Assembly (NCBI GenBank): GCA_013205085.1
Contig: JABMLH010000002.1
Span: 685,425 to 749,424 of the forward strand
Direction of reading: 5' to 3'
From: Microbacteriaceae bacterium VKM Ac-2854
Lineage (GTDB): Bacteria > Actinomycetota > Actinomycetes > Actinomycetales > Microbacteriaceae
Length of the DNA: 64,000 nt
Position 1 is the first letter of the stretch, and every line of letters begins with the position of its first letter. The notes under the pieces were generated by a model, which searched no databases, was not told where the DNA came from, and saw nothing but the letters and a program-made list of their open reading frames with translations. This document shows positions 1,404-15,368 of the stretch, in pieces. The position numbers and the translations under genes were made by a program.

Positions 1404-3707
1404 TCAGGCGGCGGGCTCGAGGCGCACGACCACCGACTTGGAGGTGGGGGTGCCGGAGACGTCGGCCGTCGAGGTGAGCGGCACCAGCACGTTCGTCTCG
1501 GGGTAGTACGCGGCCACGCAACCGCGCGGGGTGTCGTAGGCGACGGCACGGAAGGCGGGCGCGCGGCGCTCGCCGTCGGTCCACTCCGAGACGATATCGA
1601 CCATCGCGCCGTCGGCGAGACCGCGCTCGGCGAGGTCGTCGCGGTGCACGAAGACCACCCGACGCCCGCCGTAGACCCCGCGATAGCGGTCGTCCTTGCC
1701 GTAGATCGTGGTGTTGAACTGATCGTGCGAGCGCAGCGTCTGCAGCAGCAGCCGCCCCTCCGGCACGCGCGGGTACTCCAGCGGATTCGCGGTGAAGCGG
1801 GCCCTGCTGGTCGCGGTGCGGAACTCGCGCGCATCCCGCGGCGGATGCGGCAGCACGAATCCGCCCGGCTTGGCCACCCGGCGGTCGAAGTCCTCGAAGC
1901 CCGGCACGACGCGCCCGATGTGCCCGCGGATGCGCCGGTAGTCGCCGCGCAACGCCGCCCAATCCACGACAGGCGCGTTCGCCCGCCCGGCGAGCACCCG
2001 CTCGGCGATCTCGGTCACGATCGCGACCTCGGAACGCACCTCCGGGCCGGGCGGCGAGAGCCGGCCGCGTGAGGCGTGCACCGCACTCATCGAGTCCTCC
2101 ACCGTGACGCTCTGCTCCACGCCGCCCTGCAGGTCGCGGTCGGTGCGCCCGAGCGCCGGCAGGATCAGGGCGCGCCGACCGGTGACCAGGTGCGAGCGAT
2201 TCAGCTTGGTCGAGACCTGCACGGTCAGCGCGAGCGAGCGCAACGCCGCCTCGGTGAGTTCGGAGTCGGGCGTCGCGCGGACGAAGTTGCCGCCCATCCC
2301 CATAAAGACCCGGGCTCGACCCTTGTGCATCGCGGTGATTGCGGCGACGGTGTCGTAGCCGTGCTCGCGCGGCGAGGCGAAGCCGAACTCCGCATCCAGC
2401 GCGTCGTGGAACGCGGCGGGCATCCGCTCGAAGATGCCCATCGTGCGGTCGCCCTGCACGTTGGAGTGCCCGCGCACCGGGCAGACCCCGGCGCCGGGCT
2501 TGCCGATGTTGCCGGTGAGCAGCAGCACGTTCACCACGTCCTTGAGCGTGGCGACGGAGTGCTTGTGCTGCGTGAGCCCCATCGCCCAGCACACGGTGGT
2601 GCTCGGCTTCGCGGCGATCAGGCCCGCGATTTCGCGGATCGTCGCCTCCTCGATGCCGCTGGCCGCGACGATCTCGGCCCAGTCCGCGCGGCGCAGCCCG
2701 TCGAGGTAGGCGTCGATGCCATCGGTGTAGCCGTCGATGAATTCGCGATCGAAGACACCGCCGCCGTTCTCCTCCCGTTCCAGCAGCGCCTTGCCGAAGC
2801 CCTGGAACAGCGCCTGGTCACCCCCGAGCTTCACCTGCAGGAAGTGATCCGCCAGGGCGGTGCCGCCGCCGATCACGCCGCGCACGGTCTGCGGGTTCTC
2901 GAAGCGCATCAGGCCCGCCTCGGGCAGCGGATTCACGGCCACGATGACCGCGCCCGCGCGCTTGGCGCGTTCGAGCGAGGTGAGCATCCGCGGATGGTTG
3001 GTGCCCGGATTCTGACCCGCGACGATCAGCAGCGAGGCGCGCTCCACATCCCGCAGCGAGACCGAGCCCTTGCCGATGCCGATGGTCTCGGTCAGCGCGG
3101 ATCCGCTGGACTCGTGGCACATGTTCGAGCAGTCGGGCAGATTGTTGGTACCGAAGCCGCGCACGAGGAGTTGATAGACGAACGCCGCCTCGTTCGAGGT
3201 GCGGCCGGAGGTGTAGAAGACGGCCTCGTCGGGGCTCGCGCAGGCGAGCAGTTCTTCGGCGATCACGTCGAACGCCTCGCTCCACTCGACCGGTCGGTAG
3301 TGCGTGCCACCGGCGTCCAGCAGCAGCGGATGCGTCAGTCGCCCCTGCTGGCCGAGCGCGTAGTCGTCCCACTCGCTCAGTTCGGCGACCGAGTGCGCCG
3401 CGAAGAAGGCGGGCGGGACGGTGTGCACGGTCGCCTCCTCGGCGACGGCCTTGGCGCCGTTCTCGCAGAATTCCGCGACGTGACGCTTGTCGGCCTCGGG
3501 CCAGGCGCAGCCGGGGCAGTCGAATCCGGTCTTCTGGTTCACCCGGAGCAGCGTCTCGGCGCTGCGGACCGCGCCCATCTGCTCGAACGAGATCTGCAGC
3601 GAATGCAGGACGGCGGGCACGCCCACGGCTTTGCGCTTGCGATCGCCGACCCGCAGCTCCGCTTCATCGATGTTCGAGGTCCGGGGCGCTGCGTCATCGT
3701 GAGCCAT
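1404..3707 (-). CDS. FdhF/YdeP-family molybdopterin oxidoreductase
   Basis: A 767-residue molybdopterin oxidoreductase of the YdeP type (formate-dehydrogenase-alpha-like; physiological substrate unknown in this family). Near the N-terminus GFDCPGCAWP, followed by a further Cys (EFCENG), fits an iron-sulfur ligand set. The segment TSGRTSNEAAFVYQLLVRGF, then PDCSNMCHESSG, is the family signature; the Cys of NMCHESS aligns with the Sec/Cys molybdenum ligand of FdhF. The gene is divergent from fdhD, whose product sulfurates the cofactor of such enzymes, and converges with a MoeA-like gene, so the three form a molybdo-enzyme locus. Start at ATG 3707. No subunit gene for electron transfer is adjacent. 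Confidence 0.9.
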   Translation of the reverse strand: MAHDDAAPRTSNIDEAELRVGDRKRKAVGVPAVLHSLQISFEQMGAVRSAETLLRVNQKTGFDCPGCAWPEADKRHVAEFCENGAKAVAEEATVHTVPPAFFAAHSVAELSEWDDYALGQQGRLTHPLLLDAGGTHYRPVEWSEAFDVIAEELLACASPDEAVFYTSGRTSNEAAFVYQLLVRGFGTNNLPDCSNMCHESSGSALTETIGIGKGSVSLRDVERASLLIVAGQNPGTNHPRMLTSLERAKRAGAVIVAVNPLPEAGLMRFENPQTVRGVIGGGTALADHFLQVKLGGDQALFQGFGKALLEREENGGGVFDREFIDGYTDGIDAYLDGLRRADWAEIVAASGIEEATIREIAGLIAAKPSTTVCWAMGLTQHKHSVATLKDVVNVLLLTGNIGKPGAGVCPVRGHSNVQGDRTMGIFERMPAAFHDALDAEFGFASPREHGYDTVAAITAMHKGRARVFMGMGGNFVRATPDSELTEAALRSLALTVQVSTKLNRSHLVTGRRALILPALGRTDRDLQGGVEQSVTVEDSMSAVHASRGRLSPPGPEVRSEVAIVTEIAERVLAGRANAPVVDWAALRGDYRRIRGHIGRVVPGFEDFDRRVAKPGGFVLPHPPRDAREFRTATSRARFTANPLEYPRVPEGRLLLQTLRSHDQFNTTIYGKDDRYRGVYGGRRVVFVHRDDLAERGLADGAMVDIVSEWTDGERRAPAFRAVAYDTPRGCVAAYYPETNVLVPLTSTADVSGTPTSKSVVVRLEPAA

Positions 3708-3732
3708 GCCCCGAGCCTACGTCGCCGCCCGA

Positions 3733-3799
3733 CCCCGCGAGATGCCTCTTTCGCACGCTCCGCGCGGCGTGTCGCGTACAGAGGAGGCATCTCGCGGGG
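3733..3799. repeat. Palindromic repeat, family A (copy 1), in a divergent promoter region
   Basis: Perfect 16-bp arms CCCCGCGAGATGCCTC (3733-3748) and its complement (3784-3799) flank a loop containing CGCGCGGCGTGTCGCGTAC. Loop and arms recur (loop in reverse complement) at 19035-19099 and 51901-51961. This copy lies between two divergently transcribed genes (starts 3707 and 3826), so it cannot act as a terminator for either. Confidence 0.88.
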
Positions 3800-3825
3800 C
3801 TCGGCCGAGTGGCAGACTGGCGCCC

Positions 3826-4653
3826 ATGCCCCGCAACCTCGCGCGCTCCCGGATCACGATCGTGCGCGCCGGCGAGCCGGTGCGGCGGCGGGAGGACGTC
3901 CTTGCCGCCGAGGAGCCGCTCGAGATCCGCGTCGGCGGGCGCCGATTCAGCGTCACGATGCGCACCCCCGGCGACGACTTCGACCTGGTCGCCGGCTTCC
4001 TGGTCTCGGAGGGCGTCGTCACCGCCGCCGAGCACCTCGCCGCGATGCGGCACTGCGCCAGCGACTCACCGACCGGGGAGAACCTCTACAACGTCGTCGA
4101 CGCCACGGTGCGCGGCGGGCGTGCGAGCCTCCTGGTCGACCGGGAGCGCGCCGTTTTCACGTCGAGTTCCTGCGGCGTGTGCGGGCTGGCCTCGATCGAC
4201 GCGGTGTCGACGGAGTCGGCCTGGAGCGTCGCGGAGGATGCGCTGGCGATCGACCCGGAGCTGATCACAGCGCTGCCGGATCGGCTCCGCGAGGCCCAAG
4301 GGCTCTTCGACCGCACCGGCGGCGCCCACGCCGCGGGACTCTTCGCCGCCGACGGCACGCTGCTCTGCCTGCGCGAGGACGTCGGCCGGCACAACGCCGT
4401 CGACAAAGTCGTCGGCTGGGCCCTGCGCAACGAGCTATTGCCGTTGCGCGGCACGGTGCTGCAGGTTTCGGGGCGCGCCTCTTTCGAGCTGGTGCAGAAG
4501 GCCGTGATGGCCGGCATCCCCGCGCTCGCGGCGGTCTCCGCGCCGTCCTCGCTCGCCGTCGACCTCGCCCGGCGCTCCGGCCTGACCCTGGTCGGCTTCA
4601 GCCGAGGCGCCGGATTCAACATCTACGCGGGTGAGCACCGGCTCGGTCTCTGA
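3826..4653 (+). CDS. fdhD: Formate dehydrogenase accessory sulfurtransferase FdhD
   Basis: 275 residues. FdhD transfers sulfur from a cysteine desulfurase to the bis-MGD cofactor of formate-dehydrogenase-type enzymes and is needed for their activity. The functional loop SSSCGVCGLASID is present, with both Cys of the CGxCG motif. Downstream LREDVGRHNAVDKVVGWAL and VSGRASFELVQKA are also family signatures. The frame is open upstream to 3706, but that stretch is the family A palindrome and overlaps the divergent gene's start. ATG 3826, giving MPRNLARSRITIVR, is therefore the likely start. Divergent from the YdeP-type oxidoreductase that it presumably activates. Confidence 0.93.
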   Translation: MPRNLARSRITIVRAGEPVRRREDVLAAEEPLEIRVGGRRFSVTMRTPGDDFDLVAGFLVSEGVVTAAEHLAAMRHCASDSPTGENLYNVVDATVRGGRASLLVDRERAVFTSSSCGVCGLASIDAVSTESAWSVAEDALAIDPELITALPDRLREAQGLFDRTGGAHAAGLFAADGTLLCLREDVGRHNAVDKVVGWALRNELLPLRGTVLQVSGRASFELVQKAVMAGIPALAAVSAPSSLAVDLARRSGLTLVGFSRGAGFNIYAGEHRLGL

Positions 4654-4666
4654 GCGGGGTGTGAGG

Positions 4667-4775
4667 GAGGACGGATGCGAACGAAACGCATCCGCGTCGG
4701 CGCCGTCCCGATGCCCGGAATTACGGGGATCGGCGCGGAGCCGACACCGGGTGCGATCGTGTTCGATCCGTCCTC
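4667..4775. terminator. Imperfect long inverted repeat between convergent genes
   Basis: AGGACGGAT (4668-4676) and ATCCGTCCT (4766-4774) are outer arms, followed inward by further partly matching bases and an inner GC-rich pair. It lies between fdhD and a converging acetyltransferase, and its right arm covers that gene's stop codon. A bidirectional terminator role is likely but unproved. Confidence 0.5.
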
Positions 4776-5274
4776 AGTCATCGGACCGCGTCAGCACCAG
4801 CACCAGAGCCACGCGATCCGCCGGGTCGAAGCCCATCCGCTCCTCACCGGCGAGCATCTCGGCCAGGGGAACCGGCAGCGGCACCGGCTCCACGAATCCG
4901 CGCCGCGCGTAGAACGGTGCATTCCACACCACCGAGCGGAAGGTGGTCAGGGTGATCGAGTCGCAACCGAGGGCGCGGGCGTCGTCGATGACCGACTGCA
5001 GCAGCGCCGAACCGACGCCTCGACGGCCCTCGTCAGGGTGTACCGAAAGCTGCTCCAGGTGCATCGCGGTGTTGTGCTCCGCCGCGAGCGCGAATCCGAT
5101 GATCCGGCCGTCGCGCTCGGCGACGAAGAACCGCGCCGCTTCGAAGGAGTCGGCCGCCGTCACATCGTCGCTCGGCAGAAGCCCCGGTCCGAAGCGCGAA
5201 TCAGCGGCGCGTTCGACCTCCAGCGCCGGATCGATGTCGCGTGACGTCCCGATCCGGATTCTTAGAGCGTGCAC
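4774..5274 (-). CDS. GNAT family N-acetyltransferase
   Basis: 166 residues with the GNAT core: FFVAERDGRIIGFALA (beta-3/4), then LEQLSVHPDEGRRGVGSALL, carrying the acetyl-CoA pyrophosphate-binding pattern R/Q-x-x-G-x-G/A, and NAPFYARRGFV near the end. The acceptor substrate cannot be predicted. The start is a GTG at 5272-5274 preceded by a GGGGAG-type ribosome binding site; no in-frame ATG fits better. The C-terminal residues and stop lie in the inverted repeat shared with the fdhD end. Confidence 0.85.
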   Translation of the reverse strand: MHALRIRIGTSRDIDPALEVERAADSRFGPGLLPSDDVTAADSFEAARFFVAERDGRIIGFALAAEHNTAMHLEQLSVHPDEGRRGVGSALLQSVIDDARALGCDSITLTTFRSVVWNAPFYARRGFVEPVPLPVPLAEMLAGEERMGFDPADRVALVLVLTRSDD

Positions 5275-5369
5275 AAAACCACTCCCCTCTTAGTTGTCGG
5301 ACGGCCACAAGAGAAGACCCCCGAAGGTGGTTCATCGCCGCACGATGGAGCCTCGCTAGAGTTTCCCTC

Positions 5370-5627
5370 ATGGCCGACGAACTGAGTGCGGCCGTCGTGC
5401 GCGAATTGCTCGCAGCGTTGGATGAACCGGGCGAGATCAATTCCGGCCTCGTCTTGCACGTCCGTGCGCAGCTGCAGGAGGCGTTGGACGCGCTGGAAGC
5501 GGCGCCGGCGACGACACCGGTCGCGAAACTCGACGAACGTCGGCGGATGCCCACCCTCGGCGTGCCACTCGCCGCTCTCGAGGGTGCGCCCGATGACGAG
5601 CCGCCGATACCCCCATCGGCTCTGTAG
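5370..5627 (+). CDS. Small protein of unknown function, first of a paralogous pair
   Basis: 85 residues, not recognised. N-terminal helix with LLAALDEPGEINSGLVLHV, an Ala-rich amphipathic helix (VRAQLQEALDALEAA), then a tail LAALEGAPDDEPPIPPSAL. The next gene has the same plan: AALxxPGxxNxGLxxxV, then PxAALxGxxxxxPPIPPxAL ending exactly at the C-terminus. The longer frame from 5241 overlaps the divergent acetyltransferase, so ATG 5370 is preferred. No signal peptide, membrane segment or cysteines; probably cytosolic. The fixed proline-rich terminus suggests a docking motif (inference). Confidence 0.7.
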   Translation: MADELSAAVVRELLAALDEPGEINSGLVLHVRAQLQEALDALEAAPATTPVAKLDERRRMPTLGVPLAALEGAPDDEPPIPPSAL

Positions 5628-5745
5628 CGGAACCCGTCGCACCGAATCGCCACCATTATCGCGGATCGGGCGTAGCCTGTCGCGCATCCGAGCCGTCCGC
5701 GTCCGGCTGCGGGAAGCACCGACTCGCCGACGAGAAGGCGAGACC

Positions 5746-9703: not shown

Positions 9704-9788
9704 GGAGAATTCGCCTAGTGGCCTATGGCGCACGCTTGGAAAGCGTGTTGGGTGCAAGCCCTCGGGGGTTCGAATCCCCCATTCTCCG
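9704..9788 (+). tRNA. tRNA-Ser (anticodon GGA)
   Basis: An 85-nt class II tRNA. The acceptor GGAGAAT (9704-9710) pairs with ATTCTCC (9781-9787), discriminator G 9788. The anticodon arm ACGCTTGGAAAGCGT reads GGA. There is a long variable arm and a T-arm GGGGGTTCGAATCCCCC. CCA is not encoded. The last five bases and the following terminator are duplicated at 14546-14597, so this tRNA is the attachment site of the downstream island. Confidence 0.95.
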
Positions 9789-9835
9789 CGAACGGTGTCC
9801 GTTGCTCTCGCCAGCACGGGCACCGTTTTTCGTTG
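9784..9835 (+). repeat. Left attachment-like direct repeat (attL candidate)
   Basis: Starts CTCCGCGAACGGTGTCCGTT inside the tRNA-Ser acceptor and runs through its terminator to CGTTG. It matches 14546-14597 in 50 of 52 positions. Confidence 0.8.
9789..9833 (+). terminator. Rho-independent terminator of tRNA-Ser
   Basis: ACGGTGTCCGT (about 9791-9801) pairs with ACGGGCACCGT and is followed by TTTTT (9826-9830), giving a stem of about 11 bp with one G-U. A near-identical copy sits at the other end of the island. Confidence 0.82.
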
Positions 9836-9850: not shown

Positions 9851-9858
9851 CCATCCGG
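9851..9858. repeat. Target-site duplication of the IS, left copy
   Basis: CCATCCGG directly abuts the left inverted repeat and is repeated exactly at 11102-11109. An 8-bp duplication is usual for the IS256 family. Confidence 0.85.
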
Positions 9859-11101
9859 GGGTTATAGGACAGAACGTGTGGATGGCGTTGGGCGTGTCAT
9901 GTGCGTCCTGCCCATCCTGATCTGGTCCAGAGGCCTTCGTCGGCGGTGAGCGCGGTGTCGAACAGGGCGGGACCGTCGGGTTCGATGTCGGGTGCGAGGG
10001 TGGTGTCGCTCGTCGTGGTGGTCGCTTCGTTTGCGAGGCTGAGCGCGGAGTCGAGTGGGATCTCGTGCAGTGTGAGGAACCATTCCGCGGCGCGTTTCAT
10101 GTGGGGCTCGGTCATGCCGCGGTGGGCGCGGAGTACGGTTCGGACCTGCGCGTTGATGCCGCCCTCGAGCGGGCTGGTGGTGCGCGGGTTGCCGTATTCG
10201 ATGTAGGTGAACAGGACGCCGTCGCGGGTGACTTTCTGCAGCAACAGCCAGGCTTTGCGGAGCCGGTCATGGGTGAACCAGAACTTGCCGTGATGCACGG
10301 TGGTGCGCTCGGTGGTGAGGTGCCCGAACGTGCGCCACCACTCGTCCAGCTGGATCCGCCAAGCGATCGCGTCGTCGGCGGTGGTGACCGTGGTCAACGC
10401 TTTGCTGAGGCCGAGCAGTGCGCGGCCGGCGTCGGTGCGGGGGCGCATGGTCAGGTGGTGGCGGATGTTCATTTGGATGTGGAACAGGCAGCGTTGATGC
10501 TTCGTCTCGGGCCAGACGCGGCGCAGCGCGGTGGGTAGTCCCGCGCCGCCGTCGGAGACGATCACCGCGGGCGCGGGAATCTGTTCCAGGAGCGCGGTCC
10601 ACGCGGCGGTGGACTCGCGGGCGCACCATTGCCAGGCGAGGACGTCGAGCTGGTCCGATACCGCGATCAGCAGACACCAGGACCCGATCCAGAGCCCGTC
10701 CACCAGGACCGCGTGATGGGTTTTCTCGACCGGTCCGATCCGGGGCTGGATGTCCCAACACCAGGCGGTGTCGCGTCGGAAGGAACGCGCCGACGCCGTG
10801 TCGCTGGCGGCTGTCTGCGACGCGGTCGAGTTCAGCCATTCCAGGAACCGTCTGAGTTGCTCGCGACGAATCACGTCGGGGCGTCTGCGGACCGCGGACG
10901 CTCCGCATTCGCGGCAGCGCCATCGCTGCGTTCCCGCCGCCGTGCGTCCGTTCTTCACGAGCGCGGATCCGCATATCACACAGGTCGTCGAGTTCGAGGG
11001 AGCAGCCACAACTAAGGGTGCCGACCCATACCGACCCGCATTTCACCCCGCAAACACGCGGCTCAACGACGATCCCATCCACACGTTTTGGCCTATAACC
11101 C
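9859..11101. mobile_element. Insertion sequence, IS256 family (IS1249-like), intact
   Basis: 1243 bp. The ends are inverted repeats: the left begins GGGTTATAGGACAGAACGTG, and the right, read inward, begins GGGTTATAGGCCAAAACGTG; the match continues into GTGGATGG with two mismatches overall. It holds one transposase gene on the minus strand and is flanked by CCATCCGG on both sides. Perfect target duplication and an open transposase frame suggest a recent insertion, just inside the left end of the tRNA-Ser island. Confidence 0.9.
9897..11009 (-). CDS. IS1249-type transposase (IS256 family)
   Basis: 370 residues. The N-terminal zinc finger has CVICG and RCRECG (two CxxC pairs, about residues 11-37). 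The DDE catalytic core has D in VLVDGLWIG, D in VIVSDGGAG and E in SPLEGGINAQVR. The segment HQRCLFHIQMNIRHHL between the second D and E is the C/D-x2-H element typical of IS256-like enzymes. It cuts and pastes or copies the 1243-bp IS. The start is a GTG. The reading frame is complete, so the element may be active. Confidence 0.93.
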   Translation of the reverse strand: MAAPSNSTTCVICGSALVKNGRTAAGTQRWRCRECGASAVRRRPDVIRREQLRRFLEWLNSTASQTAASDTASARSFRRDTAWCWDIQPRIGPVEKTHHAVLVDGLWIGSWCLLIAVSDQLDVLAWQWCARESTAAWTALLEQIPAPAVIVSDGGAGLPTALRRVWPETKHQRCLFHIQMNIRHHLTMRPRTDAGRALLGLSKALTTVTTADDAIAWRIQLDEWWRTFGHLTTERTTVHHGKFWFTHDRLRKAWLLLQKVTRDGVLFTYIEYGNPRTTSPLEGGINAQVRTVLRAHRGMTEPHMKRAAEWFLTLHEIPLDSALSLANEATTTTSDTTLAPDIEPDGPALFDTALTADEGLWTRSGWAGRT

Positions 11102-11109
11102 CCATCCGG
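11102..11109. repeat. Target-site duplication of the IS, right copy
   Basis: CCATCCGG, identical to 9851-9858. Confidence 0.85.
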
Positions 11110-11243: not shown

Positions 11244-13130
11244 TCAATCGGCTTCTGGCTGGTCCGTCCCTGTCTCCATGTTGTCACCGGACGGTTCTGC
11301 GGGGTCATGTATCCCCGTCGCTTCGGAGCTGTGACCCTGATTCCAGAACTGCAAGTAGACAATCCGCAACGCCAGCCACCAGGCGTATAGCGAAGTCGCA
11401 CCTTCGGCCGTCGAGTCGGCCAGAAGGCCGTGAGCTATCTCGTTGCGGAGGTTCGGACCAGCTGCGTCCGAGTGGAGTACGCGAAGTCCATACGTGAGAT
11501 CAGCACCAAAAATCTCTTCCATCTTTTCGCTCTCAAGAAGGCTTGACATTCCCTTCTCATTCTCGGTGCCTGCCGCGGTGCGAGTGGTCGTCAGAACGCC
11601 TCCACTATTCAGATGATGGCGAACAAAATTCTCGATCTGCATCGTAAGTAGCTGCGCAGCGGTCGAAAAGTCACCGATATAACCATAGTAGAGCCCGCGC
11701 GCGAACTGCCTGACATGGTCGAGAGGGATAGTCGACGAGTTAGCAGTGATGGCGATGAAGTCGCCAATCGTCAGGTGGTGCTCATTGGTGAGCGTTTCGT
11801 AGCCGGGCCATAGCCGACCTGCAGCGAGTAGCTGGATACGAAGAACGTGCGTGTCCACCATCTGTCGCCATACCGCGGGATCAATCCCGAAGACCGGTGT
11901 GCCGCCGGAGCCATCTGAGCGCCTGATGATGCGTCCGTCTGCCGAGTAGGTGATTCTGGAGAATAGCGCGGAAAGGGGATGCTCCTGGAGCATCTTTTCA
12001 GCATCTACTCGATCCTTTACGACCGGCGCAAACTGATGGAGCATCGCAAACGCCAGCAACGCCTCCTGAGTTTCAAGTCCTGAGACTCGGTCTCTCGCAT
12101 CCCGAGCCGCCTCAGTCAAATCAACCGGCTCAGATTCGAATTGCTGCATATTCCCAAGACCAGCCGCACCCATTTCGCGGATTCGGCGCGCGAGGGCTTC
12201 CGCCATATCTGCTAGACCCAACTCCACGCGGTCGACGCGAGGTACCTTCTGCAACTCTCGAAGCGCTAGTTCGAACAAGTGACCGGCCCGGGCGAATTCG
12301 CCGACGCCGTCAGCCGCAAGCGCCTCTGCCTCCGCTACATACGAACGAATCACAGTCTCGTACGACGCACCACGCGCTCCCTCATCGCCGCCAATTCCAA
12401 ACCATTCTCCGGCCGCTTTGTAATAAACGCGCGCTTTGTCTGGGTCTATGATAAAAGAGTCAGCCAGAGCCCGCAGGCGCTCAGCCACCTCCGTCGATTT
12501 CTCCCGTCCGAGGCCATGGTTCATGAGAGCATCGGCCAGCTGAGCTTGAAAGTAATTGTCTGGAGTTTCTTGCAATAAATTGCGTAGGAGTTGGCTTTCG
12601 AAATTTTCGAGCTCTTGTCTCGTGGCCTTGCCGAAGCGCCTGGCAGTTTCAATCGCGCGATGCCACATGTCACGTTCGTCGAACCATCCCTCGGATTCGA
12701 TTCCGTATGTGATTAACGCTTCGAGATACGCCCGGACGTGAAGGATCCGCTGGCTGCCAGTCACGCGTAGTGCGATCACGTCATGTACGCGAGCGCGTAG
12801 AAGTACGTGCGGCACAGAATCGACGACCTCCTGTAGGAGCGAAATCGTATCGTCCGCGAGGTCCGTCGGAAGGAACGTCCGGTCATCGCCGCGGTAATAC
12901 ATCGGGCCATACCCGGCGTTCCAGTCGTCAGGCAATACATGCAAGGAGGCTATTGCGCTCAACGCCTCCAGGGCGTCTTTCACGCGTCCATCGTTTTCGC
13001 CTTCGGCCGCTTCGCGCAATGGAATCCACAACAGAGTTACGCTACTCCGGCCGGCTACAAACGCTGCCAGAAGGTTGGGCCTCTGAAAGAGAATATCCCA
13101 AGAAGATCCCTCGTATTGATCGTCGCTCAT
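11244..13130 (-). CDS. DUF4209-like protein with C-terminal HEPN-type RNxxAHG motif
   Basis: About 628 residues, mostly alpha-helical, soluble, no signal or membrane segment. Near the C-terminus is NLRNEIAHGLL (Arg near residue 562, His near 567), followed by YAWWLALRIVYLQFW. The RN-x3-HG motif is the hallmark of DUF4209 and has the R-x4-H spacing of HEPN ribonuclease domains. The long N-terminal part reads like helical repeats (for example FARAGHLFELALRELQKV), probably a sensing or scaffold region (inference). The tail of about 25 residues is acidic and disordered. ATG 13130 is preferred over GTG 13157 because AAGG precedes it at normal spacing. Base composition is clearly less GC-rich than the core genes, fitting horizontal acquisition. 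Last gene of the island cassette. Confidence 0.72.
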   Translation of the reverse strand: MSDDQYEGSSWDILFQRPNLLAAFVAGRSSVTLLWIPLREAAEGENDGRVKDALEALSAIASLHVLPDDWNAGYGPMYYRGDDRTFLPTDLADDTISLLQEVVDSVPHVLLRARVHDVIALRVTGSQRILHVRAYLEALITYGIESEGWFDERDMWHRAIETARRFGKATRQELENFESQLLRNLLQETPDNYFQAQLADALMNHGLGREKSTEVAERLRALADSFIIDPDKARVYYKAAGEWFGIGGDEGARGASYETVIRSYVAEAEALAADGVGEFARAGHLFELALRELQKVPRVDRVELGLADMAEALARRIREMGAAGLGNMQQFESEPVDLTEAARDARDRVSGLETQEALLAFAMLHQFAPVVKDRVDAEKMLQEHPLSALFSRITYSADGRIIRRSDGSGGTPVFGIDPAVWRQMVDTHVLRIQLLAAGRLWPGYETLTNEHHLTIGDFIAITANSSTIPLDHVRQFARGLYYGYIGDFSTAAQLLTMQIENFVRHHLNSGGVLTTTRTAAGTENEKGMSSLLESEKMEEIFGADLTYGLRVLHSDAAGPNLRNEIAHGLLADSTAEGATSLYAWWLALRIVYLQFWNQGHSSEATGIHDPAEPSGDNMETGTDQPEAD

Positions 13131-13317
13131 CCCTTTGACCTTACTGCCGGTCACCACGATACAAGTCGAACACCCATAAGATCGGCTCCGCGGCCGCGCT
13201 CTGAAAAGTTCTCACACCTCACCCCGGATACAAGCCATCACGGCACACGAAGCGACGGATCGACAAGAAGCCATGCTGTCGGATGATATGCTCGGTCTTT
13301 TGAAGACATAGATTCTC

Positions 13318-13917
13318 TCAACCACGAGACTTCGGACCGCCGGACGCGACGAGGCAGAGTGTCAAAAATCGGCTGTACGCCTCCCATAGTTCGACTCGCG
13401 CAGGGTTTGACGATTCGCTAGCACCCCACATGGACCATGACACCTTCACGGCTGCCTCAGCCGTTGCAACGTGGTCGAGAGTTCGATAGCGCACCGGGTC
13501 GTAGTCGTTGCTGTAGTCCGCTTCATGCCGCGCATCCTGAAGCTCGATGAAACTTTCGGCCAGAGTCAACAGCTTCGGCGGGACAGGCTTCGCAGGAATG
13601 CCACGTAGAAGGACGAGCGCGCTCCGATTGGATTTATTCGGTTGTCGGGTGAGATCTGCGGCTGTCTGTACCCAGCCGCATGCTTCCTTGATGCCAGTAT
13701 GAGTGAACCAACGCGTGATATTCGACACGTCGTCTTCACTCGCGCCGCGTACCGCGTGAAACGCCCCGTGGCGGATGATCTGGTGAAAGAGCGCGTAGTA
13801 CGCCGTCGACGTTGCTCGGCGCAGGTCGGATAGGGCAGGGCGACCTTGTCCGGCGTTCTGACCGGCGAGGATGCCTGCAGTGCGCAACATTCCTGACGCC
13901 CAAATGGGATGCGTCAT
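13318..13917 (-). CDS. HEPN-like helical protein
   Basis: 199 residues. DLRRATSTAYYALFHQII (about 31-48) and LQDARHEADYSNDYDP (about 126-141) match the two conserved helices of HEPN proteins with a YYAxFH helix and an R-x-x-A-D-Y helix. A strict R-x4-6-H catalytic motif is not evident in the second helix, which reads RHEADY, so nuclease activity is uncertain. It overlaps the upstream gene by 4 bp (ATGA), so the two are translationally coupled and probably act together. It lies in the island, 187 bp upstream of the DUF4209-like gene. Likely an RNA-binding or RNA-cleaving effector of a defence or toxin module (inference). Confidence 0.65.
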   Translation of the reverse strand: MTHPIWASGMLRTAGILAGQNAGQGRPALSDLRRATSTAYYALFHQIIRHGAFHAVRGASEDDVSNITRWFTHTGIKEACGWVQTAADLTRQPNKSNRSALVLLRGIPAKPVPPKLLTLAESFIELQDARHEADYSNDYDPVRYRTLDHVATAEAAVKVSWSMWGASESSNPARVELWEAYSRFLTLCLVASGGPKSRG

Positions 13918-14291
13918 CCGGCCTGGCCCTCCGACCCCAGGTCAGCCGATTCTCCCTCGACGGGCGCTTCGGGCTCGGCTATGTCTGACGGCGGCGCATC
14001 TCGTGTGGACACGTCCACACTCGTAGCACCCTCGAGGGCCGGACCAGCTGCGGCTGTCAGATCATCCACTTCGAGCCTGGCCTGGCGCTTCAGCGCACGG
14101 GTTGTATCTACATCCCAACCGCTGCGGTTCTTGGGCTTGGTGAGAAAAAGAGTAACGCGCCAAGCGCTCTGACCGTCCGCATCCTCTCCTGAACGCAGTT
14201 CAACGTCCTCGACGCGAACACCATTGTTCTCAACGCCGACCATGCGGACGCGAAGCGCTGACTCAAGACCCATCGAAGTTGTATCGACCAT
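13914..14291 (-). CDS. Small unrecognised partner protein coupled to the HEPN-like gene
   Basis: 125 residues. The first half is predicted beta-rich (LRVRMVGVENNGVRVEDVEL, then WRVTLFLTKPKNRSGWDVDT) followed by a helix (RALKRQARLEVDDL). The last 50 residues are acidic, Pro/Ser-rich and probably disordered. I do not recognise the family, and no nucleotidyltransferase motif of a MNT antitoxin is present. The 4-bp overlap with the HEPN-like gene suggests an antitoxin or sensor partner (inference). First gene of the island cassette; a weak GGGTGAG-like site precedes the ATG. Confidence 0.6.
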   Translation of the reverse strand: MVDTTSMGLESALRVRMVGVENNGVRVEDVELRSGEDADGQSAWRVTLFLTKPKNRSGWDVDTTRALKRQARLEVDDLTAAAGPALEGATSVDVSTRDAPPSDIAEPEAPVEGESADLGSEGQAG

Positions 14292-14545: not shown

Positions 14546-14597
14546 CTCCGCGAACGGTGTCCGTTGCTCCCGCCAGCACAGGCACCGTTTTTCGTTG
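14546..14597 (+). repeat. Right attachment-like direct repeat (attR candidate)
   Basis: Second copy of the tRNA end plus terminator. Upstream of it, AGGGGTTCGAA resembles a T-arm, but spacing and pairing are lost, so it is not a functional tRNA. Confidence 0.8.
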
Positions 14598-14608
14598 GGT
14601 CGCCCCCG

Positions 14609-14670
14609 GCGCTGTCGTTTTCACCGCGCGCTGCCGGCACGCCACCCGCGCGCGGTGAAAACGACAGCGC
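14609..14670. terminator. Palindrome with perfect 22-bp arms at the island's outer edge
   Basis: Arms at 14609-14630 and 14649-14670 are exact complements, containing GCTGTCGTTTTCACCGCG, with an 18-nt loop. It lies just outside the right direct repeat and 8 bp from the end of the tetR-type gene, so it probably terminates that gene. Confidence 0.78.
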
Positions 14671-14678
14671 GGCGGGGG

Positions 14679-15368
14679 CTAGCGCGCGACGCGGCCGAGC
14701 CACTCCCCCATCAGGGCGCGTTCCGCCGCCGTGAGCTGCGGCAGCTCCGCCGCGGCGAGCGCCACGGCGTGGGCGACCAGCGCCCGTTCGGCGGGATCCG
14801 CCGCGGCTGCGGCCGTGGTTATCGAGCCGAGGATCGCATCGCGGGTGTGCGGCGAGAGTCCCGCGTCGCGCGCATCCGCCGGGGTGCCGATCAGCGCGAG
14901 GGTCACCCCCATGCCCGCCGCGTGCACGATCTGCACCGCACGCTCGACGTCGACCGTCAGCCGCCCCGCCTCCGCCACGCGCTCGACGAGGCCGCGCAGG
15001 ATCGCCTCCGCCTGGCGCGCCGCCTCGGGCTCGTCGCCGTCCCGGTCCGGCCCACCGTAGATCAGGGCGTAGACGTGCGGATGCGCCAGACCGAACCCGA
15101 CGTGCAGGTCCCAGCCGGCGCGCAGATCCTCTACGGGGTCACCGCTCGGCACGCGAGCGGCTTTGGTCTCGAGGTACTCGGCGAAGCCCGCGGTGGCGAC
15201 GGCGTCGAGCAGGCCGCGCATGTCGCCGAAGGTCCGGTAGATCGTCGGCGCCTGCACGCTCGCGGCGGCGCTGACCGCACGCGTCGACACCGCCTCCAGC
15301 CCGCCGTCGGCCAGGAGCGTAGCGGCGGCGTCGAGGATGCGTTCGCGCGGGGTCATCGACTCAGTCAC
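14679..15368 (-). CDS. TetR/AcrR family regulator
   Basis: 229 residues. The N-terminal HTH runs from RERILDAAATLLADGGLEAV to PTIYRTFGDMRGLLDAV (about 8-55), followed by a helical ligand domain of TetR_C type. It is divergent from an SDR oxidoreductase gene 68 bp away. A pair of identical 11-bp direct repeats in the shared intergenic space is the likely operator. It therefore probably represses the SDR gene and itself in response to a compound handled by the SDR (inference). The start could also be Met5. Confidence 0.88.
   Translation of the reverse strand: MTESMTPRERILDAAATLLADGGLEAVSTRAVSAAASVQAPTIYRTFGDMRGLLDAVATAGFAEYLETKAARVPSGDPVEDLRAGWDLHVGFGLAHPHVYALIYGGPDRDGDEPEAARQAEAILRGLVERVAEAGRLTVDVERAVQIVHAAGMGVTLALIGTPADARDAGLSPHTRDAILGSITTAAAAADPAERALVAHAVALAAAELPQLTAAERALMGEWLGRVAR

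Follow-up and report, generated by a model that had tools for sequence, protein, structure and literature searches.

A candidate HEPN toxin-antitoxin pair with a small acidic partner, and a separate PDC-S39 candidate, in a tRNA-Ser island of Microbacteriaceae bacterium VKM Ac-2854

Positions 11244 to 14291 of a 64,000-nucleotide (nt) stretch of DNA from Microbacteriaceae bacterium VKM Ac-2854 (contig JABMLH010000002.1, positions 685,425 to 749,424 of the forward strand; the whole stretch analysed is hereafter called the window) probably hold two independent units, a reading to which a probability of about 0.6 is given. The first would be a HEPN toxin-antitoxin pair whose antitoxin is distinct from the minimal nucleotidyltransferases (MNTs), and the second, which stands beside it, a separate single-gene candidate of the PDC-S39 type. 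Judged from its recurrence in other genomes, the pair, made of a 125-amino-acid (aa) and a 199-aa protein, appears as a widespread unit of its own that has no name. The large protein is already catalogued as the PADLOC candidate PDC-S39. The three genes are arranged as follows.

13914..14291, minus strand: small acidic partner, the proposed antitoxin, 125 aa, isoelectric point (pI) 4.3 (from the list of open reading frames (ORFs), the upstream position in the family, alignment and pI)
13318..13917, minus strand: PF05168-type HEPN protein, the proposed toxin, 199 aa, pI 9.2 (from the ORF list, profiles and alignment)
11244..13130, minus strand: PDC-S39 protein with DUF7380 and DUF4209, 628 aa from the ATG at 13130 (from Pfam, PADLOC and alignment)

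An earlier note on this DNA had described three minus-strand genes spanning 11244-14291, the small one overlapping the HEPN-like gene by ATGA, and both statements are borne out by the ORF list and by the coordinates of the overlap (13914-13917). The three frames are not due to chance, since the large one matches the PADLOC model PDC-S39 (E 5.9e-166, residues 37-612 on positions 27-608 of the 615 of the model) and the pair recurs in other phyla. An alternative GTG start at 13157 would give the large gene 637 aa with the same end at 11244. The distance from the HEPN gene is 160 nt if the GTG is taken as the start and 187 nt if the ATG is taken, and the large gene thus lacks tight coupling to the pair. 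The GC content, calculated in windows across the three genes, amounts to ~56-63% against ~70% in the surroundings, and promoter- or terminator-like sites are in no excess over shuffled sequences.

To assess the distribution of the pair, genome samples were used which represent draws, and most of the loci recovered are short. With the HEPN protein as a query, 2/199 genomes of the family Microbacteriaceae were matched, the window's own and one more, and a search of the genome collection yielded three loci, in Labedella phragmitis (Microbacteriaceae), in a Dermatophilus metagenome-assembled genome (MAG) and in a Hyphomonadaceae MAG, all three with the small gene directly upstream of the HEPN gene; by its coordinates, the Labedella locus is the same place as that of the second family genome. 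Profile searches located the pair in 7/396 Actinomycetota genomes (the window's own counted) and in 23/289 alphaproteobacterial genomes (the centre genome G199 counted), and the Hyphomonadaceae HEPN protein is matched by 29 plasmid records, of which 27 are from Rhizobium. When every locus from the Actinomycetota and alphaproteobacterial searches is considered (L010-L049, broken ones kept), the partner is found by profile directly upstream of the HEPN gene at 38/40 loci, a count that includes the window's own and in which L018 and L020 are one place; the exceptions are L022, which starts at a contig end, and L042, in which the order is reversed. Because many of these 40 loci had gone into the profiles, the fair test of pairing is offered by new loci that were not used in building them. 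A profile search of 299 Pseudomonadota genomes gave 17 matches, comprising 3 already known, 8 new strong and 6 weak ones (E 4e-8 or worse), and all eight new strong loci (L146, L147, L148, L151-L155) have the partner upstream, at E 6e-7 or better. No partner occurs upstream at the six weak places, five of which have a TPR-like gene instead, the sixth looking spurious. Conversely, a search with the partner retrieved 22 places in 17/190 genomes, and a HEPN gene adjoins 18 of them, L139 ending at the contig end.

The gap between the two genes ranges from -47 to +27 nt in 30 curated copies; a later start is available for the largest overlap (L027), and none is listed for the next one (L035, -41 nt). 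These 30 curated pairs, together with the window, form the alignments, from which fragments, contig-end copies, broken copies, near-duplicates and second fetches were omitted (L017, L018/L020, L019, L022, L028, L029, L033, L038, L041, L042, L044, L046, L048, L049 and L053; alignment A5 additionally lacks L045 and L037). Among viral contigs, the HEPN profile A3 produced 33 pattern matches, none of which was confirmed, and the phage records contain no match for one relative, L021.

The settings in which the pair occurs elsewhere are informative as well. In Rhizobium plasmids it lies within a few kb of repABC in 3 of the 4 annotated regions viewed, and in an Acidisoma plasmid replication and ParA genes lie before it and a recombinase gene after it, RelE/ParE being located further on. 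Several alphaproteobacterial genomes harbour two copies of the pair, some of them broken. Such a plasmid and replication setting, together with double and broken copies, are habits of toxin-antitoxin genes. In the reversed locus L042 (genome G852), a HEPN fragment is followed by the partner gene, and this arrangement is probably a remnant.

The 199-aa protein, which the earlier note had called HEPN-like, belongs, by the profile matches of its family, to the HEPN superfamily and to the PF05168 type. Searched against the PDB, the family profile recovers the HEPN structure 9xbd at E 9e-7 (also chain 9xbc) and the UPF0332 protein 2hsb at E 1e-4, and PF05168 is matched by 6/29 HEPN members at E up to 0.1, the best at 1.4e-6; the HEPN protein of L032 reaches 21.6 bits against a PF05168 cut-off of 22. 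Eight residues, S37, Y40, Y41, R69, H73, R130, A133 and Y135, are invariant in the 31 aligned HEPN sequences, and D134 is kept in 30 of them. An Rx4-6H motif starting at R130 occurs in 5/31 sequences, all of them actinobacterial, the window having RHEADYSND at this place, and RX4HXY occurs in 0/31. The HEPN proteins are basic, with a pI >7 in 29/31 and a median of 9.7.

The partner proteins are acidic, with a pI <6 in 24/31 and a median of 4.8. Their alignment (n=31) exhibits little in common except for a near-invariant D37, in a D-x-x-G stretch located between two strand-like segments, and by eye the layout is helix-strand-strand-helix-strand. No Pfam family matches more than one of the 31 members; nine families match one member each (E 0.003-0.065), and these matches, like that of the NCBIfam model TIGR02391 to 1/31 partners (E 8e-4), were taken as chance. 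Against the PDB, the partner profile gives E 0.59 or worse. Partner genes after which no HEPN gene was found (L127 in G602, L134 in G658, L143 in G713, and L032:2280-2582) are possibly leftovers or orphan antitoxins. As a further observation, the distant Pseudomonadota HEPN genes of L156, L157, L159, L160 and L161 lie next to, or overlap with, a gene that encodes a TPR-like protein of 225-280 aa, the HEPN protein of L156 matching PF05168 at E 4e-4. The C-terminal part of these TPR-like proteins, alike to the partner by eye, was considered as a partner homologue and discarded, the similarity being not significant (hmmsearch E 0.03-0.3, hhalign E 0.44); the two such proteins that were scanned have no Pfam match.

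Taken together, the invariant residues, the constant partner and the plasmid setting are consistent with a HEPN toxin accompanied by its antitoxin, and several observations weigh against this reading. Taken alone, the window's HEPN protein has no Pfam HEPN match, its best Pfam match being Pro-kuma_activ at E 0.007, below the cut-off, and searches of the HEPN members against NCBIfam and PADLOC gave no match at E 0.01, the PADLOC model PDC-M05B being matched by the L032 HEPN protein at E 0.02 only. At 3/22 places of the partner search (L127, L143 and L134) no HEPN gene follows the partner gene, the L143 partner being cut by the contig start and L134 offering only ~240 nt of following sequence, and in 7/31 copies the pI of the partner is 6 or above. 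The pairwise distances of partner and HEPN proteins correlate (Mantel r 0.59, with 0/5000 shuffles as high, 30 pairs), a correlation equally expected from common descent as a pair. Finally, 26/31 HEPN sequences lack a canonical Rx4-6H at R130, so that the RNase activity of the HEPN protein of the pair is uncertain.

This last feature also speaks for a non-toxic regulatory or RNA-binding pair, in which a HEPN protein devoid of a catalytic site would be modulated by its partner, as in the inactive MtlR-family HEPN regulators proposed by Anantharaman et al. (2013, PMC3710099). Such a pair is nevertheless unlikely: the eight invariant residues, among which R69, H73, R130 and Y135, suggest an active site, and toxin-antitoxin cargo better accounts for the patchy spread (7/396 and 23/289 genomes), for the location on plasmids or in an island and for the copies that are duplicated or broken.

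A derived HEPN/MNT (type VII) pair, in which the partner would be a diverged or dead minimal nucleotidyltransferase and Y135 is or was the AMPylation site, has to be weighed in the same respect. According to a 2020 article (PMC7641770), Class II HEPN/MNT modules (PF05168 / PF01909) contain PF05168 HEPN proteins without the RNase motif, with a conserved tyrosine in the absence of RX4H, and these modules were, to the knowledge of its authors, without biochemistry. The pair described here resembles them by its PF05168-type HEPN protein without RX4HXY, by its conserved tyrosine and by its gene order, the small gene lying upstream of, and being coupled to, the HEPN gene as in type VII, a likeness of position only, since the antitoxin role of the small protein is put forward by inference. 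The helix-strand-strand-helix-strand pattern and the near-invariant D in the D-x-x-G stretch point in the same direction. It differs from them in that the partner has no conserved GSX10DXD and no MNT similarity by profile: the strict motif occurs in only 1/31 partners and a loose GSx(8-13)DxD in 4/31, against 12/13 and 13/13, respectively, of the MNT controls, counts that are partly built in because the controls were picked by a similar pattern, and the partner profile aligns with the 13 MNTs at E 0.9 (hhalign), worse than with reversed MNTs (E 0.11). No Pfam nucleotidyltransferase is found among the matches of the 31 partners. Neither motif nor profile supports an MNT, in agreement with the earlier note, for which the small partner was no recognised MNT; the few loose and strict motifs keep this explanation among the rivals, as a rather improbable one.

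The large protein is of another kind. Besides its match to PDC-S39, which covers nearly the whole protein, it matches the Pfam families DUF7380 (E 5e-23) and DUF4209 (PF13910, E 1.5e-17), and it contains RNEIAHG, i.e., a canonical R562-x4-H567 (628-aa numbering). R562, N563, A566, H567 and G568 are kept in an alignment of five DUF4209 proteins, and R562 and H567 are invariant (5/5), in keeping with the HEPN nuclease spacing seen in this motif by the earlier note. In Anantharaman et al. (2013, PMC3710099), DUF4209 is placed in the HEPN superfamily, with a predicted activity, and operons related to restriction-modification (R-M) are noted; among the papers searched, PDC-S39 is named in one, where PADLOC predicts it in a strain of Pseudomonas aeruginosa. 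The likeness to PDC-S39 and to the DUF4209-C6orf70 HEPN family thus rests on this match and on the canonical Rx4H; no sequence difference was found between the large protein and PDC-S39, and only the setting differs, as the large protein adjoins here the 125/199-aa pair. Among plasmid records, a relative in Aeromonas has a DNA methyltransferase and a helicase in its vicinity, and one in Chlorohelix adjoins a DNA methyltransferase; in the Klebsiella and Massilia records neither methyltransferase nor helicase stands directly beside the relative, and integrase, insertion sequence (IS) or intron genes are near. The PDC-S39 model matches 10 of the 396 Actinomycetota genomes, and in 4 the match is strong (E 1e-16 or better). 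Its domain and its conserved motif make it most likely that PDC-S39 is a defence protein which acts on its own through an RNase activity, and its C-terminal DUF4209 HEPN domain would probably act as an abortive-infection RNase.

The earlier note had joined the three genes into one candidate module without a described counterpart, and the neighbourhood search which it proposed as a check found no co-conservation of the trio elsewhere. Among 87 pair loci other than the window's, some of which are second fetches of one place, no PDC-S39 gene was detected by tblastn with five PDC-S39 proteins at E 0.01; ten of the loci span 6-17 kb, including Labedella L004 (16.6 kb), and the rest extend over ~1.5 kb or less per side. 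As a positive control, the gene of the window itself is recovered with every one of the five queries. A 636-aa reverse frame in L004, close to the large protein in length, was also considered; tblastn gives no PDC-S39 there, and the opposite strand is oxidoreductase-like by eye. Reciprocally, neither gene of the pair occurs at any of the 7 PDC-S39 loci from other genomes and plasmids (0/7), and the pair and PDC-S39 occur together only in the window's genome among the 396 Actinomycetota genomes. Since no second case of the pair beside PDC-S39 was found, one three-gene defence system, with a small sensor or inhibitor, a HEPN effector and a large DUF4209 sensor-nuclease acting jointly, is rejected as the preferred explanation and is very improbable, even though the genes are adjacent, on the same strand and within one island, and even though most of the pair loci are short; the 160 nt between the HEPN gene and the GTG of the large gene speak against it as well. 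Genes that adjoin each other in a defence island need not belong to a single system. With regard to novelty, the large gene belongs to the catalogued PDC-S39/DUF4209 type, and for the pair alone no described match was found in the partial literature searched.

According to the preferred reading of two units, the acidic protein encoded upstream would be made first, and would bind and neutralise the basic HEPN protein. Neutralisation would probably occur by stoichiometric binding, as the partner is without the nucleotidyltransferase motif of MNTs. Upon loss of the partner, whether by loss of the island, phage takeover or proteolysis, the HEPN protein would attack or block RNA, resulting in a growth stop. 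Its site would probably consist of the invariant R69-x3-H73 together with R130-x2-A133-D134-Y135, rather than of the usual Rx4-6H. Family membership, pairing, gene order, coupling, charge, setting and conserved residues are observed, as are the repeats and the empty site of congeners; toxicity, the choice of the antitoxin gene, RNA as the target and a defence function are inferred. A HEPN toxin with a small non-MNT antitoxin, as in the proposed pair, also occurs in RnlA/RnlB, which differs from it in gene order and in the architecture of the toxin. Another relevant family is HEPN-T (PF05168), in which, according to the accessible part of Anantharaman et al. (2013, PMC3710099), a D replaces the canonical H and a conserved H occurs elsewhere; these could be read here as D134 and H73, respectively. 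In contrast to the pair, HEPN-T is described there with MNT or R-M operons, not with the partner family reported here.

It is proposed, with evenly balanced confidence, that the pair represents a widespread class of HEPN toxin-antitoxin systems. In this class, the place of the MNT would be taken by a small acidic protein from a new family, and the HEPN site would have the alternative, invariant form R69-x3-H73 plus R130-x2-ADY135; such pairs would help to maintain plasmids in rhizobia and, in Microbacteriaceae, would be carried alongside defence genes on tRNA islands that have no recognised integrase. The searched releases of Pfam, NCBIfam and PADLOC contain no model for this class. In the literature searched, whose coverage was partial, no description of the 125/199-aa pair, no paper on a HEPN protein with repABC, no experimental test of PDC-S39 and no paper on DUF7380 were found. 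With its fixed, non-enzyme-like partner and its eight invariant residues, the pair offers a clean system to ask whether, and how, PF05168-related HEPN proteins are toxins.

The island which carries both units is integrated at a tRNA gene, as indicated by direct repeats at tRNA-Ser and by the empty site in relatives. Its elements and the flanking gene are the following.

9704..9789, plus strand: tRNA-Ser (GGA), the integration site
9784..9835, plus strand: left 52-bp direct repeat, comprising the 3' end of tRNA-Ser and the terminator-like hairpin after it (hairpin by eye)
9897..11009, minus strand: IS1249-family transposase, in an element bounded by inverted repeats 9857-9885 / 11075-11103
14546..14597, plus strand: right 52-bp direct repeat, 96% identical, present as a single copy in congener G888
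14679..15368, minus strand: TetR-like regulator (named by eye), the right flanking chromosomal gene, next to tRNA-Ser in insert-free congeners

The three genes had been said to fill the island; they do occupy 11244-14291, but the region between the repeats additionally carries the IS1249 transposase. No integrase was recognised among the four main ORFs scanned in the island (the three genes and the transposase). In congener G888, a single repeat lies between tRNA-Ser and the TetR-like gene, and there is no insert. Among 15 genomes of the genus, the TetR-like gene lies within ~160 bp of tRNA-Ser in 10, and an insert occurs in 5, the window's included, so that 10/14 congeners are free of insert at this site. 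Depending on the congener, the inserts differ. In G881 (L076, G881:C1:402000-410000, 2215-5726), a C5-methyltransferase (PADLOC MTase_II, E 1e-77), an HNH_2 protein and a DUF2188 protein are located between two such repeats, a further ORF of the insert begins like an ISL3 transposase by eye, and no integrase was recognised among the ORFs scanned. The G882 site contains a GNAT acetyltransferase and one repeat. The G045 and G887 sites contain an HTH-Peptidase_M78 protein (by Pfam, in the G045 copy) as well as a 184-aa protein for which Pfam gives no match, and the search found no repeat there. The tRNA-Ser site of this Microbacteriaceae genus thus takes short cargo without recognised integrase, and because this cargo is largely defence- or toxin-antitoxin-like, it supports, without proving, such a role for the genes of the window. 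The repeats at tRNA-Ser and the restriction-modification genes at the same site in G881 accord in this way with the defence or toxin-antitoxin function suggested by the earlier note.

Two minor observations concern the same region. In G045 and G887 (L087 and L088, ~600-2550), the HTH-Peptidase_M78 and 184-aa genes overlap by 4 nt and look like another toxin-antitoxin-like pair. In the window, a 36-bp inverted repeat (86%) at 14603-14676, just past the right direct repeat, may be a terminator that separates the island from the TetR-like gene.

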